NCBI GenBank assembly: GCA_030835845.1
Contig: JAUROD010000056.1
Coordinates: 1 to 38,704, forward strand
Length of the DNA stretch: 38,704 nt
Reading direction: 5' to 3'
Source: Flavobacteriaceae bacterium
Lineage (GTDB): Bacteria; Bacteroidota; Bacteroidia; Flavobacteriales; Flavobacteriaceae
Below are positions 186 to 6,194 of this stretch, one piece after another. A program made the position numbers and the translations under genes. The notes beneath the pieces were generated by a model. That model was not told the DNA's origin, ran no database searches, and saw nothing but the letters and a program-made list of their open reading frames with translations. Within the stretch, counting starts at the first letter, position 1, and every line of letters begins with the position of its first letter.

Positions 186-1931
186 ATGCTTAATAGAAAT
201 AATATGATTTCACAAAATAAAATAGCGTATTCTACCTTTTTTATTTTGTTTCTTTTTCTCGTTAACTGTTCTGCCGAACAACCATTAGCAGAGGAAGAAG
301 CCACGGAACAAACAAGTGAAGTAGTTACGGAATATGTTCGTATTGAGGCGTCAGCAGCAGACGGTGGTAAAGTATCCAATGTAAATTCAAGTTATGCCAA
401 GGGAGAAAAAATTATTCTTATTGCGACACCAGATCCAGGGTATATTTTTGAAAAATGGTCCAATAATTCGACTAAAAATCCTCTTGAAATGACATTGGAT
501 TCTGATACAGAGGTAATTGCTTATTTCACCTTAGTTGATCGTGATTTGGATGGTATTAATGATGAAAATGATCAATGTCCAGATAGTCCTGCAAGGCATG
601 AAGTAAATGAAAATGGATGTGGTATTTCACCGATTATTGTGGCGCAAAAACCGACCATACCTGCCGACGAAGTCGTCTCTATTTATTCTGATTCGTATAC
701 AAACAACAGGGTTGATTTTTTTCTTACCAATTGGTCAAATGGTGAAATTGAAGAAGTGTATTATTACGAAAACAAGGTTAAGAAATATTCTAAACTTGGT
801 TTTTTTGCTATTGAAACAGCCGTTCAGCAAATTGATATATCCACAAGACTATATTTAGAATTTGATCTTTGGAGTCCAAACCTGAACGAATTTAGAGTCA
901 AGTTAGTTGACTTTGGACCGAACGGAACCTATGAAGGAGCTGGACAAGGTGATGATACAGAAGCTACAGTAACTGTGGATGCGATTGAAAAATCAGAGTG
1001 GGTACACATCAAAATTCCGTTGACTGATTTTACTGAATTACAGCACAGAGAAAACATTGCACAATTTATTTTTTACAGTACTGAAGGAGAGGAAAACTAT
1101 GTCTATATAGACAACATTCTTTTTTCTGGACCTGCACCTGAAGTGGATGAAGTAACTCCTCCTGAAGAACCTCAAGAGGGTCCACTGAATCTTGTTTGGA
1201 ATGATGAATTTGATGTTGATGGACGGCCGGATACTGACAAATGGCATCACCAAACATATGCACCCAATGGGGGAAGTTGGTTCAACGGTGAGTTACAGCA
1301 TTACGTCAATAAAGCAAGTACCACTTATGTCAGTGAGGGAAAATTAAAGATTGTTGCAAAAAAAGAACCTTACACGACCCAAAACAGACGAAAAGAATAC
1401 ACCTCGGCTCGATTGAATTCAAAATTTAGTTTCAAATACGGTCGGGTAGATGTACGTGCTAAACTACCGGGGGGTGAAGGAACATGGCCTGCTATTTGGA
1501 CACTTGGAACAAACATTGACGAAGCTGGAAACTACTATGGAAGTCGCGACGGAAGTGTGGGATGGCCTTCTTGTGGGGAAATTGACATACTCGAACAAAA
1601 CGGTTGGGATAAAAGCCAAGTCTATGGATATTTTCACTGGGGTAACCCTTTAAATCAGGGTGCCTATGAAAATGCTGGAACGACTACTAGGGTAAATAAT
1701 ACCACCACTGAATTTCATATTTACTCGCTTATTTGGGATGAAAACGAAATGAAAATTGCTGTAGATGACGTCGTCTTCTTTACCCTATCAAATAATCCGA
1801 CAAACCCCTACAAAAACCCACATTACCTCCTACTCAATATTGCCGTGGGTGGGAATCTTGGTGGAAATGTTCCTGCCTCTTTCAATACGGAAATTATGGA
1901 GGTAGATTATGTGCGGGTGTATCAACGTTAA
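186..1931 (+). CDS. GH16 family endo-beta-glucanase (laminarinase-like) lipoprotein
   Basis: This is a surface lipoprotein predicted to cleave beta-1,3(-1,4)-glucans such as laminarin. A hydrophobic signal ends in a lipobox (LVNC, Cys28 counted from the ATG at 186). An InlB-B-type bacterial repeat domain follows (about 50-116), then a thrombospondin-3-like calcium stretch (DRDLDG..., about 118-147), a beta-sandwich region resembling a carbohydrate-binding module (about 160-320), and a GH16 domain to the C-terminus. The GH16 signature GEIDILE places the nucleophile at Glu465, Asp467 in the middle and the acid/base at Glu470. The ATG at 204 gives an equally good signal peptide and may be the true start. 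No SusC/SusD or second glycosidase is next to it in the window. Substrate specificity within GH16 is inferred from the motif type only. Confidence 0.9.
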   Translation: MLNRNNMISQNKIAYSTFFILFLFLVNCSAEQPLAEEEATEQTSEVVTEYVRIEASAADGGKVSNVNSSYAKGEKIILIATPDPGYIFEKWSNNSTKNPLEMTLDSDTEVIAYFTLVDRDLDGINDENDQCPDSPARHEVNENGCGISPIIVAQKPTIPADEVVSIYSDSYTNNRVDFFLTNWSNGEIEEVYYYENKVKKYSKLGFFAIETAVQQIDISTRLYLEFDLWSPNLNEFRVKLVDFGPNGTYEGAGQGDDTEATVTVDAIEKSEWVHIKIPLTDFTELQHRENIAQFIFYSTEGEENYVYIDNILFSGPAPEVDEVTPPEEPQEGPLNLVWNDEFDVDGRPDTDKWHHQTYAPNGGSWFNGELQHYVNKASTTYVSEGKLKIVAKKEPYTTQNRRKEYTSARLNSKFSFKYGRVDVRAKLPGGEGTWPAIWTLGTNIDEAGNYYGSRDGSVGWPSCGEIDILEQNGWDKSQVYGYFHWGNPLNQGAYENAGTTTRVNNTTTEFHIYSLIWDENEMKIAVDDVVFFTLSNNPTNPYKNPHYLLLNIAVGGNLGGNVPASFNTEIMEVDYVRVYQR

Positions 1932-1999: not shown

Positions 2000-2167
2000 A
2001 TGGCTACAATTAAAATTGAAAACAAACGTATCACCGTACTTGATGCACTTAGAGGCTTTGCACTTCTTGGTGTGATTTTGATGCATATGCTTCAGAGTTT
2101 TGGAATTCAATCTTTACCTAACGACAATGATTTTCTTGTCATACCCGTAATCGGCAAAAAAGATTAA
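2000..2167 (+). pseudogene. 5' stub of a DUF418/YeiB-type membrane protein
   Basis: From the ATG at 2000 the frame encodes 55 residues and stops at 2165-2167. The first 35 or so (motif ITVLDALRGFALLGVILMHM) match the N-terminal membrane segment of the DUF418/YeiB/HGSNAT-like acyltransferase-related family, whose members are several hundred residues with multiple membrane spans. Everything after the first span is missing, and the last 15-20 codons (about 2115-2167) look unrelated. The end lies on top of an antisense stub (2114-2242), suggesting a deletion fused two facing genes. It cannot make a functional family member. Confidence 0.7.
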
Positions 2168-2242
2168 AAAAGATTGTGCCTGTGTTGTTACTGAACTTCC
2201 CAACACAAAGGCTAGTAATGTGAAAACTTTAATTGTATTCAT
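2114..2242 (-). pseudogene. 5' stub of a secreted protein (signal peptide only)
   Basis: Reading leftward from the ATG at 2240-2242 gives 42 residues. The first 24 form a textbook Sec signal peptide: MNTIK, a hydrophobic core TLLAFVLGSSVTT, and a TQA|QS-like cleavage site. After it the frame runs antisense through the tail of the DUF418 stub and stops at 2114-2116. The mature protein is therefore absent and its identity unknown. With the opposing stub, this marks a deletion junction at roughly 2140-2180. Confidence 0.55.
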
Positions 2243-2262: not shown

Positions 2263-2421
2263 TTGAATGCATTAAAACAAAGACATGCTTTGTCTGAATT
2301 AAATAATAGACTCCAAAATGTGCTAAAAATAGAATGCGTAGGCAATCAGAAAGTAGAACAGATTTGGAGTGATTTATCGACCAATATAATAAAAAACAAG
2401 TTTCTACCTAATCGATATTAG
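2263..2421 (+). CDS. Possible small or remnant ORF, 52 aa, unknown
   Basis: A 52-codon frame beginning at a TTG (2263) encodes a polar sequence with coding-like composition, including RLQNVLKIECVGNQ and KVEQIWSDLS, and ends at TAG 2419-2421 inside a small hairpin. There is no ATG, and the frame is blocked upstream by a TGA at 2257-2259. It lies divergently from the signal-peptide stub and may be another fragment left in this eroded patch. I do not recognise the family, and chance is possible in AT-rich DNA. Confidence 0.2.
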   Translation: MNALKQRHALSELNNRLQNVLKIECVGNQKVEQIWSDLSTNIIKNKFLPNRY

Positions 2422-2428: not shown

Positions 2429-2489
2429 TAAATACTGTAAATGAATAAAAATTAGAAGTAAAAAAGGGTGAAAGAAAAGAAAACAGTTG

Positions 2490-2564
2490 TGGGTGTTGAG
2501 GGATTCGAACCCACGACCTCTACCCTGTCAAGGTAGCGCTCTAAACCAACTGAGCTAAACACCC
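2490..2564 (-). tRNA. tRNA-Val (anticodon GAC)
   Basis: On the minus strand a 75-nt cloverleaf can be drawn: acceptor GGGTGTT/AACACCC with discriminator A, D arm GCTC...GAGC, anticodon stem CTACC/GGTAG with loop TTGACAG giving anticodon GAC, 5-nt variable loop, and T loop TTCGAAT. CCA is not encoded. The T stem (GTGGG/CCCTC) has one U-U mismatch at its second pair, which is tolerable but unusual. The isoacceptor reads GUC and GUU. Confidence 0.93.
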
Positions 2565-2572
2565 TAGGGCAG

Positions 2573-2580
2573 CGAAGATA
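2573..2580 (-). promoter_or_regulatory. Candidate -7 box for tRNA-Val
   Basis: The minus strand reads TATCTTCG, seven of eight matches to TAnnTTTG, 8 nt upstream of the mature tRNA 5' end. That spacing would place transcription initiation almost at the tRNA start. A -33 element is not convincing. Confidence 0.3.
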
Positions 2581-2749
2581 CAAATTCTTCGTTCAAGTTT
2601 TTCGTTTTATTGCATTTTGAGTAACTAGAGACAGAAATTTTAACCAAACAAGCATAAGCAATAAATGAATTCACTTTAATTTGGTTAAATCACTATAAAA
2701 CACAAGAAAAAATGATTGCCTGATACCCTTATTTTGGCTAGTCAAACTA

Positions 2750-3507
2750 TTGATTCATATTATATTATCCCCCCCCATGGGTTGGGGAATAACCATAAAA
2801 TCAATAAATGATATAACAACCTGGGATGTAAGTAGTGTGACCAACATGAGTAAGATGTTCGATGAAGCCTCACGTTTTAATCAAGACATTACCCATTGGG
2901 ATGTGAGTAGTGTAACGGATATGAGTTTTATGTTTAGAGATGCTGATGATTTCGTTCAAGAAATTGGAGTATGGAATGTCTCCAGTGTAACGACTATGCA
3001 GGAAATGTTTATTTATGTTAGCTTATTCAATCAAGATATTAGGAATTGGGATGTGTCTTCAGTTACTGATATGAGCTATATGTTTTTTTCGGCTAGTAAA
3101 TTTGATCAGTCCATTGGAGGTTGGAACGTAAGTAGCGTGACCAACATGGCTTATATGTTTAAAGAAACACCTTTTGATCAAAATATAGGTAACTGTGGGA
3201 TGTGTCCTCAGTCATAGACACGAGCCATATGTTTAATTAGGCACAAAAATTCAATCAAGACATCGGGAATTGGAATGTTTCTTCCGTTACAAACATGAAT
3301 CAGATGTTTTATCAAACAGTCTTGTTTGATAAAAATATAGGAAATTGGAATGTGAGTAGCGTAACCAACATGGGTTATATGTTTTCAGGTTCTCAGGCAT
3401 TCAATCAAAACCTAAGTAGTTGGGACGTAGATCAAGTGACCAATCATGGCAGTTTTGCTACTAACTCCAATGTAAATTGGTTAGCGGATCATAAGCCTCA
3501 ATTTTAG
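2750..3507 (+). pseudogene. BspA-like (DUF285) repeat surface protein, frameshifted
   Basis: The translation is a run of about 26-residue repeats with the core W[DN]VSSVT[DN]MSxMF typical of BspA/DUF285 surface proteins. Two lesions are visible. A 2-nt insertion at about 3194-3197 (AACTGTGGGAT where AACTGGGAT is expected) sends the first frame to a TAG at 3215-3217. After restoring the frame, a TAG at 3238-3240 lies where repeat context expects Gln (MFN*AQKF). The final segment (3295-3507) ends in WLADHKPQF, a usual C-terminus for such proteins. No ATG or signal peptide precedes the repeats in frame; only TTG 2750 or the ATG at 2777 after a C8 tract is available, so the 5' end also looks lost. 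Confidence 0.8.
2822..3456 (+). repeat. Nine tandem ~78-nt BspA/DUF285 units
   Basis: Units begin at tryptophan codons spaced about 78 nt apart. The first Trp is at 2822 and the last, degenerate unit (WDVDQVTNHG) is at 3421. Units 1-5 are in one frame; units 6-9 are displaced by the 2-nt insertion near 3195. Such near-identical units favour slippage and recombination. Confidence 0.75.
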
Positions 3508-3582
3508 GAATCGAAAATAATTCAAAAGAATAAAAAAACCATAGACCTAAGATGGTGCGAAGCGGGTAAGAGTTAGGTTCAT

Positions 3583-3613
3583 TAAAAGCACCCCAATACG
3601 GGGTGTTTTTTTT
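3583..3613 (+). terminator. Rho-independent terminator
   Basis: CACCCC (3589-3594), loop AATAC, GGGGTG (3600-3605), then eight T (3606-3613), preceded by AAAAG. This is the strongest plus-strand terminator in the window. It would end the transcript of the broken BspA gene and insulate the alanine dehydrogenase downstream. Confidence 0.85.
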
Positions 3614-3659
3614 GGGATAAAAAAAGTAAAAAATAAAATAAAAATATCACACATTTAAT

Positions 3660-3667
3660 TAGATTTG
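3660..3667 (+). promoter_or_regulatory. Candidate -7 box TAGATTTG for ald
   Basis: TAGATTTG is a full match to TAnnTTTG, 14 nt before the ATG at 3682, just after the terminator at 3583-3613. A start about 7 nt downstream would leave a leader under 10 nt. The upstream A-rich stretch lacks a clear -33 TTTG. Confidence 0.45.
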
Positions 3668-3681
3668 TTAAAAAAACGAGG

Positions 3682-4773
3682 ATGATTATCGGTGTTCCAA
3701 AAGAAATAAAAAACAATGAATCACGGGTCGGTTTAAATACGGCAAGTGTGCATTCCCTCACATCGCAAGGACATGAAGTGTATGTCCAAACATCAGCAGG
3801 CTTGGGTAGTGGCTACTCAGACAGAGACTATGTAGATGCAGGTGCAAAAATATTAAATAGTGCAAAGGAAGTCTATGCCTTTGCGGAGCTAATTGTCAAA
3901 GTAAAAGAACCTTTAGAGGCAGAATATAAGCTAATTCGCAAGGGACAAATTCTTTTTACTTATTTTCATTTTGCCTCGAGTCAATCACTTACCGAAGCAA
4001 TGCTAAAAAACGGTGCAATTTGTATTGCGTATGAAACTGTGGAAGATGAGAAAGGTCGTTTGCCATTGCTAACACCCATGTCTGAGGTTGCCGGAAGAAT
4101 GTCCGTGCAACAAGCAGCCAAATATTTGGAAAGTCCTCAAAAAGGAAAAGGAAAACTATTGGGAGGAGTTCCGGGAGTTGCACCTGCCAAAGTATTGATC
4201 ATTGGAGGGGGTGTAGTTGGTGCAGAAGCTGCTAAAATGGCTGCTGGTCTTGGTGCTCAAGTCTATCTTTTTGACATCAACTTGGATCGTCTTCGTTATT
4301 TGAGCGAAGTTTTACCAGCCAATGTATTTACACTGTATTCGTCCGAAGAAAACATAAACATACACCTTGTAGATTGTGATGTGATTATCGGAGCTGTGTT
4401 GGTTCCAGGAGCCAAAGCTCCTAAAATTATTCGCAAAGAAATGCTTTCTTCTATGGAAGCGGGAACAGTGCTTGTGGATGTAGCGGTTGATCAAGGAGGT
4501 TGTTTTGAAACATGTCGAGCTACCTCGCACAAAGATCCTGTTTTTATCGAAAAAGATATCGTACACTACTGTGTAGCCAATATTCCTGGTGCAGTTCCAA
4601 TGACTTCGACCAATGCATTAAATAATGTGACCTTAAAATATACCCAATTGATTGCTTCCCAAGGTTGGGAAAAAGCATGTGAATCAAATGCTGCACTTGC
4701 AAAAGGATTGAATATTGCTTCTGGAAAAGTAATGTATCAAGCGGTTGCCGACGCATTTGACCTAGACCTTTAA
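3682..4773 (+). CDS. ald: Alanine dehydrogenase
   Basis: NAD-dependent interconversion of L-alanine with pyruvate and ammonium in the cytoplasm (EC 1.4.1.1). The 363 residues match the family's usual 360-375. Family active-site positions are visible: Arg15 (ESRVGL), Lys75 (VKVKEPL), His96 (YFHFASS) and Asp270 (VDVAVDQGG). The Rossmann glycine motif IIGGGVVGAEAAKMAAGLGA lies at about 172-191. It is transcribed alone after a strong terminator, with a full TAnnTTTG box just upstream. It may feed alanine nitrogen into central metabolism alongside the aconitase downstream, but nothing links them beyond position. Intact. Confidence 0.95.
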   Translation: MIIGVPKEIKNNESRVGLNTASVHSLTSQGHEVYVQTSAGLGSGYSDRDYVDAGAKILNSAKEVYAFAELIVKVKEPLEAEYKLIRKGQILFTYFHFASSQSLTEAMLKNGAICIAYETVEDEKGRLPLLTPMSEVAGRMSVQQAAKYLESPQKGKGKLLGGVPGVAPAKVLIIGGGVVGAEAAKMAAGLGAQVYLFDINLDRLRYLSEVLPANVFTLYSSEENINIHLVDCDVIIGAVLVPGAKAPKIIRKEMLSSMEAGTVLVDVAVDQGGCFETCRATSHKDPVFIEKDIVHYCVANIPGAVPMTSTNALNNVTLKYTQLIASQGWEKACESNAALAKGLNIASGKVMYQAVADAFDLDL

Positions 4774-4814
4774 TTCGCTATTAAATTGGTACATTTACGG
4801 TATAAATAAAACCA

Positions 4815-6194
4815 ATGATAGAGGAATTGATTGCTCTTTTGGGCAGCAGCAACGTACTGGCAAACGGAGAAGAAAAAAGTCGTTTTTCACATATCTGGAA
4901 AACAGATATTCCGTTGACTGCCCTTGCAGTTGTTTTTCCAAGATCAACCGAAGAAGTTGCTACCATTATGCGATTGTGTAATTCTAATAAGCAACAGGTG
5001 GTGGTTCACGGAGGATTGACCAACTTGGTAGGTGCTACCCAAAGTGAAACTTCACAACTTGTAATTTCATTGGAAAAAATGAATTCCATCGAGGAAATCG
5101 ATGAACAAAGCCGAACACTAACTGTTGAAGCAGGCGCAATTTTGGAACATGTGATTGATGCCGCGAATGAAAAAAATCTTTTTCTACCCTTGAGTTTTGG
5201 AGCAAAAGGATCTGCTCATGTGGGAGGAGTAATTTCAACCAATGCAGGAGGTCTTCGTGTGTTTCGCTATGGAATGACCAGACAAATGGTGTTGGGTCTT
5301 GAAGTGGTTTTGGCAGATGGTACAGTAATTAGTTCCCTAAAAAAAATCATCAAGGACAATTCAGGATACGACCTAAAACAACTTTTTATTGGTGCTGAAG
5401 GTACCCTTGGAATAGTAACCAAGGTTGTTTTTCGATTGCATGAAAAACCAAAAAGTCGCTCCTCGGCAATTGTGGGTATTCAGTCCTATCCTGAAGTAGT
5501 GAGTTTACTTAAATTTCTTGAAAAAGGACTTGCAGGAACATTGACAGGATTTGAATTGATGTGGCAAAGGACCTATCAAGCAATGACACGTCCACCGTCG
5601 GGCTACCCAGCTCCCCTACCCGATCATTTTCGATACTATGTCTTTATTGAAACACTTGGTAGCAGTCCAGAAAGTGACTTCAGTCGTTTGGAAGAATTGA
5701 TTGCTCAAGCCATGGAAAAAGAATGGATTGAAGATGGTGTGTTGGCTCAAAGTGAACGTGAATTGCAATCCATTTGGAAAATTCGAGAAGATGTATCAGT
5801 CTTGGCAGATTTAGCGGACTATGACCAACATTTTGATATTTCTTTTCCAATCAATGTAATTGGTGAAGAAATTGACCTTGCAGTCGAGGCGCTTGAAAAA
5901 CTTCCATTTGTCCGTTGTATTTTTCCCTTTGGTCATGTTGCTGATGGAAATATTCATTTCATTATCGGAAAGGAAGATAATGCACCTGAAACAATTGAGG
6001 CAATCAACGAAATTGTCTATGCAAACTTAAAAAAGAATCGAGGTTCAGTCTCAGCTGAGCACGGCATAGGATTGGATAAAAAAGCGTATTTAGGTACTTC
6101 GCGTACTCCAGAGGAAATTCGATTGATGCAACTCTTAAAAAAGAGTTTAGACCCCAAAAACCTTCTAAATCCAGGACGAATAATCAGTCTTTAA
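4815..6194 (+). CDS. FAD-linked D-2-hydroxy-acid dehydrogenase (GlcD/D2HGDH type)
   Basis: A flavoprotein of the VAO/PCMH fold oxidising a D-2-hydroxy acid such as D-lactate, D-2-hydroxyglutarate or glycolate; the exact substrate cannot be read. The N-terminal FAD_binding_4 domain (about 35-205) carries [14 protein letters not shown], the [17 protein letters not shown] loop and [11 protein letters not shown]. The C-terminal FAD-oxidase_C domain (about 215-457) has [20 protein letters not shown] and the terminal [12 protein letters not shown]. Length 459 is usual. It is 41 nt after ald, in the same direction. Its stop (TAA 6192-6194) interlocks with the stop of the convergent aconitase gene over TTAA, so no terminator separates them. 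Confidence 0.85.

Follow-up and report, generated by a model that had tools for sequence, protein, structure and literature searches.

Comparison with described systems

The closest described counterparts of the segment reported here are the DUF418 (PF04235)/YeiB-like proteins of the transmembrane acyltransferase (TmAT) superfamily, for which a DxxR motif in the first helix has been described (PMC12423673). The first 51 residues encoded by an open reading frame in the window, i.e., the whole 38,704-base stretch of DNA that was analyzed, align to intact members of this family, the DxxR motif included. Yet, the remainder of the protein, including the part modeled by Pfam, is missing, and the piece cannot be a working member of the family.

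The locus may also be compared with pseudogene remnants and rearrangement junctions in bacteria, at which short tandem duplications occur. It shares with them an abrupt end of homology, a repeat at the junction, a fused pair that is not conserved, and a broken DUF285 gene nearby. It differs in that there is no parent sequence from which the mechanism could be read. We consider it likely, though well short of certain, that the segment is a non-functional scar, in which a break or rearrangement joined a cut DUF418 gene to the beginning of an oppositely oriented secreted-protein gene. Such a scar is probably a rearrangement or deletion breakpoint, and most likely an ordinary product of gene loss or rearrangement rather than a new system.

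Overall organization of the locus

The window is one whole contig of the 1.56-Mb draft genome of a marine flavobacterium (61 contigs, 84% complete). As general background, Candidatus Arcticimaribacter belongs to the marine NS5 group (PMC9122927). Two short frames overlap head-on at the locus: a plus-strand ORF at 2000–2167 (55 aa; translation MATIKIENKRITVLDALRGFALLGVILMHMLQSFGIQSLPNDNDFLVIPVIGKKD) and a minus-strand ORF at 2272–2114, which has an inner ATG at 2242. When the segment 1900–2800 was searched for known RNAs, only the tRNA-Val gene reached the gathering score. The features are as follows:

186–1931, plus strand: GH16 family protein, directly 5′ of the DUF418 remnant, on the left side of the junction
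2000–2152, plus strand: first 51 codons of a DUF418/YeiB-like membrane protein gene, a 5′ remnant that keeps LDALRG (DxxR, first membrane helix)
2153–2167, plus strand: non-homologous tail GKKD and stop, read through the junction (from the ORF translation and the ortholog alignment)
2156–2175, no strand: perfect tandem 10-bp duplication, AAAAAAGATT twice, marking the junction
2174–2242, minus strand: "B", a signal-peptide-like 5′ stub of 23 codons from ATG 2242 to Ala-Gln, a putative gene start
2353–2367, minus strand: CCAAATCTGTTCTAC, a 15-nt non-coding motif with dispersed copies, located upstream of B
2489–2564, minus strand: tRNA-Val (GAC), which lies with ald on the conserved side of the synteny break
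3682–4773, plus strand: ald, alanine dehydrogenase, the anchor of a neighborhood conserved in congeners

A second damaged gene lies near the scar, between tRNA-Val and ald: a DUF285 (BspA-like) repeat gene at 2750–3507, which is split in two frames (2750–3217 and 3295–3507).

Truncation of the DUF418 gene

An earlier note on this DNA had read the ORF from ATG 2000 as a DUF418 N-terminus, and homology searches confirm that it is the true 5′ end of a DUF418-family gene. Matches at E 0.001 or better were obtained in 49 of 299 family genomes (own genome counted), which had been drawn evenly from a larger group. The best match outside the own genome, L085, shares 69% identity over residues 8–52 and continues as an open frame of 422 codons; the second best, L086, shares 60%. 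Among 19 genomes of the genus, matches were limited to the own genome and to G004 (52% identity, open frame of 444 codons). The Pfam model covers only the C-terminal part of the protein (residues 238–408 of L085), and the fragment takes its DUF418 label from the full-length orthologs. The Pfam scores of the fragment itself were all below the cut-off (HGSNAT_cat, E 0.003; Acyl_transf_3, E 0.003; Holin_SPP1, E 0.12, regarded as noise), and the nearest NCBIfam model was YeiB for both the fragment and the intact L085 protein, again below the cut-off. The DxxR motif of the N-terminal helix is present as LDALRG at residues 14–19, in alignments with three and with eight relatives. A plasmid or phage origin of the piece found no support, with one weak match per collection (54.5% identity over 60% of the query).

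The fragment comprises 55 codons, compared with a family length of ~400 aa and with 415–476 aa for eight intact orthologs translated here. In tblastn searches of the window, each of these eight gave one strong match from 2024, which ended at 2152 (five orthologs), 2146 (two), or 2131 (one), and none of the other matches was below E 0.6. A HMMER search of the genome with a full-length ortholog returned 2021–2155 and no other piece at E 10 or better, and the C-terminal DUF418 domain is lacking in the fragment, in the window, and, on a search with an intact ortholog, in the genome. At the position where the window reads GKKD and a stop, all eight intact orthologs continue with the block D...WIG.NI.MGRFIN.F. 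Everything after codon 51 is missing from the DUF418 gene in the window and in the searched genome, a result as solid as the assembly, which is 84% complete. An inversion inside a DUF418/DUF4440 pair was rejected, as no 3′ part of DUF418 is present on either strand of the window.

The remnant shares 53–72% identity with the orthologs over 43 codons, and the intact orthologs share 56–81% with one another. Its differences are commonest at third codon positions against each of the eight orthologs (10, 6, and 28 at the three positions against L085). This third-position excess, together with an identity near the intact range, suggests that the DUF418 gene was probably under selection until fairly recently.

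The intact frame and this codon-like pattern of differences are also what a retained small protein with one membrane helix, as opposed to debris, might display, and a short DUF418 5′ piece does occur in Anaerophaga thermohalophila DSM 12881 and Valhall (L120, 4797–5063; L121, 7908–8174). The Anaerophaga homology stops at L085 residue 59, five codons past the stopping point in the window, and the frame ends in a stop codon that overlaps with the start of the following same-strand gene. The two pieces are thus alike in that their homology ends within five codons of each other, but the Anaerophaga piece has no head-on partner, and no perfect tandem repeat of 7–15 bp was found there. Moreover, only these two of the 78 fetched DUF418 loci carry the short form, which occurs in no congener, whereas 73 loci run at least 300 codons from the match. 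Apart from L120 and L121, the loci that fall outside this group are L123, whose gene is broken at 170 codons; L185, whose long frame is interrupted by a single stop; and L194, which runs off its contig. Both Anaerophaga strains bear the same species name, so that a single event may explain the two pieces. Retention of the window's piece as a small protein is therefore regarded as very improbable. The Anaerophaga piece nevertheless makes it harder to claim short DUF418 pieces as a peculiarity of the window and slightly lowers our confidence in a scar; short DUF418 forms may sometimes be kept, and the similar cut point may or may not be chance. As a caution, the two short protein-like frames at the locus are probably remnants and should not be used for small-protein annotation without more evidence.

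The junction and its tandem repeat

The two frames had been proposed to be joined near 2140–2180, and the junction indeed falls inside that range, at 2152–2176: the DUF418 homology ends at 2152–2155 and the tandem repeat begins at 2156. The repeat, AAAAAAGATT twice, is the sole perfect period-10 tandem in the 38,704 bases of the window. No such tandem occurred in 18 of 20 Markov surrogates of the window, and the two others had one and three. In 245,612 bases of genus loci, one was detected, in L219, which is the window's own DNA, and the other loci had none. The repeat starts four bases past the clear DUF418 homology and ends within the Gln codon of B. A search for microhomology at the junction, as recommended in the earlier note, or for filler revealed a 10-bp tandem duplication; microhomology can be read only with the parent sequence. 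We infer that the repeat was made during joining. Slippage during joining, filler synthesis, and the footprint of an excised element are all conceivable origins.

For the favored scar, the following course is proposed. A break or rearrangement would have cut the DUF418/YeiB-like gene after codon 51, and the cut end would have been joined to the beginning of a secreted-protein gene running on the opposite strand, with the ~20 bp of the 10-bp tandem duplication in between. The right side would come from the ald/tRNA-Val neighborhood of the genus, and the left side would be a GH16/DUF418 piece. Both stubs, that of DUF418 and that of the secreted-protein gene, would be without function at present.

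The two gene starts open with similar 18-nt stretches, and an origin from inverted copies of one gene start was also considered. It was rejected, the alignment between the two sides being at chance level: with two scorings, 30% and 51% of 1000 Markov surrogates reached the score of their local alignment.

The two sides, 2.15 kb on the left and 36.5 kb on the right, might lie apart in the cell and have been brought together only in the assembly. Such an artificial join is suggested by the draft state of the genome (61 contigs) and by the position of the join 2.15 kb from a contig end; in addition, the join is confirmed by no other genome. We nonetheless regard it as quite improbable. A repeat of 20 bp gives an assembler little sequence on which to join, and the left side resembles the right in GC content (0.368, compared with a mean of 0.356 and an sd of 0.020 in equal blocks of the right side) and in trinucleotides, which lie within the right-side spread, although this compositional evidence is weak because the DNA of a related organism would look alike.

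The segment 1880–2480 matched in 4 of 40 genomes, own included, and the non-self pieces measured 43–56 bases, none extending over the junction. In the 19 genus genomes, the non-self matches of the segment 2200–2420 did not exceed 56 bases. It had been reasoned that a short head-on pair conserved in relatives would point to a real pair of small genes; the pair occurs in no genome searched, and a conserved small-gene (microprotein) pair is not supported on this basis. A literature search for flavobacterial gene remnants gave no hits.

The putative minus-strand stub B

From ATG 2242, B reads MNTIKVFTLLAFVLGSSVTTQAQ and then runs antisense through the junction and the DUF418 piece. By eye, it resembles a good signal peptide, with a lysine-bearing start, a hydrophobic core, and a well-placed Ala-Gln ending. 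An ORF passing a signal-peptide rule was present in 6 of 2000 Markov surrogates of the segment 1932–2488, a count to be read in the light of a rule set after B had been seen. Of the minus-strand signal peptide claimed previously at this ATG, the ORF and its signal-peptide-like character are borne out, whereas its membership in a gene finds no backing from any convincing relative. With 42 residues of B as the query, 59 of the 299 family genomes (own included) matched at E 1 or better, none of them convincingly, and the best non-self match (E 0.0018) lay in a frame with a stop. With 23 residues, 3 of the 19 genus genomes (own included) matched at E 5, again without a convincing relative (best non-self E 0.32). 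The only NCBIfam hit, ArfB_Rv0900, scored 14 bits where the cut-off is 40 (E 0.048) over 11 residues of the hydrophobic core and was taken as chance.

Neighbors of DUF418 genes were also considered as a source of B. In close relatives, DUF418 frequently shares its strand with small secreted proteins, which we take to be DUF4440-like, and with other proteins, presumably aldo-keto-reductase-like. The identification of B as the start of a DUF4440-like secreted protein is not supported; the likeness is limited to the signal peptide, and the strand is wrong.

The ald/tRNA-Val neighborhood in congeners

Besides the own genome, 14 genus genomes had an ald match, and for 11 of them the DNA upstream of ald was fetched (L237–L247). 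In 10 of these 11 stretches, the printed ORFs contain, by eye, a large sortilin-like protein followed by murF and gldJ on the opposite strand and by porV; the names Sortilin-Vps10, murF, GldJ, and PorV rest on profile searches of G005 only. The genes after ald, usually a small secreted protein and then the sortilin-like protein, point in the direction of B in 10 of the 11 stretches, and a small predicted secreted protein comes first in 8 of the 11 (shortened in G016). As for exceptions, murF and gldJ are in pieces in G013, and the 3.6 kb of G003 contain none of the neighborhood genes. The tRNA-Val gene is present in 4 of the 11 stretches: it lies beside ald in G005 and G011, and G009 and G013 have it upstream of ald.

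The order ald/(tRNA-Val)/small secreted protein/sortilin-like/murF/gldJ/porV is thus common to most stretches of the genus, and it is broken here (window 2489–6194). The window keeps ald, the following FAD-linked oxidase, and tRNA-Val; leftward, these are followed by B, the junction, the DUF418 remnant, and GH16. By tblastn, none of the sortilin-like, murF, gldJ, and porV genes was found in the 38.7-kb contig. Conversely, GH16 and DUF418, which form the left side of the window, were not seen beside ald in the congener stretches. The locus combines a seemingly recent gene loss with a synteny break beside a tRNA, in a genus with small genomes.

B starts 246 nt past tRNA-Val, on the strand of the tRNA. 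The small secreted protein starts 284 nt past it in G013 and 326 nt past it in G009, while it is farther away in G011 (963 nt) and lies behind another small gene in G005. B therefore resembles the congener secreted-protein genes beside tRNA-Val/ald in position and direction, which favors its being the start of a secreted-protein gene; it differs from them in that its 23 remaining codons show no demonstrable sequence similarity. Direct orthology with the small secreted protein of the congeners is not supported: the distance fits two of the four genomes, and no likeness in sequence could be demonstrated. On this evidence, B is likely, though unproven, to be the gene start of a secreted protein.

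It is possible, although we do not expect it, that B is no gene start at all and that DUF418 was truncated by joining to intergenic DNA near tRNA-Val. The lack of a convincing relative in the 299 family and 19 genus genomes speaks for such a chance ORF, as does the DNA upstream of B, which aligns to congeners only at the tRNA and its immediate flank. The features of B argue in the opposite direction: its ATG, lysine-bearing start, hydrophobic core, and Ala-Gln end, seldom reproduced in the surrogates by the post hoc rule, and the agreement of its position and direction with the congener genes.

Probable deletion or rearrangement

The earlier note had explained the segment by one deletion between two convergent genes. 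Part of this holds, in that DUF418 is truncated after codon 51 and its partner is signal-peptide-like, but relatives give no support to the deletion itself. Such a single local event between neighbors that were already convergent, DUF418 and a secreted-protein gene, is a narrower form of the scar favored here. It fits the geometry of two 5′ ends and the truncation of DUF418, and a convergent setting would be natural at the site, where congener genes on the strand of B meet murF head-on. The arrangement that it presupposes, DUF418 convergent with a secreted-protein gene, was looked for as the earlier note had proposed, and it occurs in none of the 38 neighborhoods scored (78 fetched). The next ORF downstream was convergent in 4 of the 38, and none of these four was signal-peptide-like by the rule, which is crude. 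In L123 and L125, what was scored as the "next ORF" is still the DUF418 gene itself, namely its second part, leaving 36 of the 38 informative. Furthermore, DUF418 was seen in none of the 11 congener ald stretches, and G004 is the only congener with a detectable relative. A local deletion between existing neighbors is accordingly somewhat doubtful.

The whole congener block, i.e., the genes in the direction of B up to the convergent sortilin-like/murF pair, is missing here, which suggests a larger event. The synteny break is accounted for no less well by a rearrangement, or by an insertion followed by a deletion, than by a local deletion. A more elaborate proposal is that a chromosome rearrangement had its breakpoint in the neighborhood common to 10 of the 11 congeners, that the 10-bp duplication is an end-joining or excised-element footprint, and that DUF418 tends to break, or to stay short, just before the WIG.N block, as the Anaerophaga piece hints. 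Taken together, these three elements make an unlikely combination.

A dispersed 15-nt motif near the locus

A 15-nt motif is located at 2353–2367 of the window (GTAGAACAGATTTGG on the plus strand, CCAAATCTGTTCTAC on the minus strand), and further copies are present in L002 and L212–L224. Exact copies number 13 in 9 of the 19 genus genomes, compared with 0 for a reversed control, a count that is somewhat circular because the motif was chosen from matches in these same genomes. Outside the genus, the motif is near chance, with matches in 8 of 394 genomes and control matches in 5; three of these eight matches (L233, L234, and L235) have a wider context in common. The site has no Rfam match, and the motif has no consensus fold. 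Several copies lie 40–80 nt past a stop codon; a TATATTTG-like box precedes them, and ATG..AAACCTA follows closely. A copy with two mismatches lies in G004 (L008, 1223–1237), ~200 bp upstream of the intact DUF418 gene of that genome.
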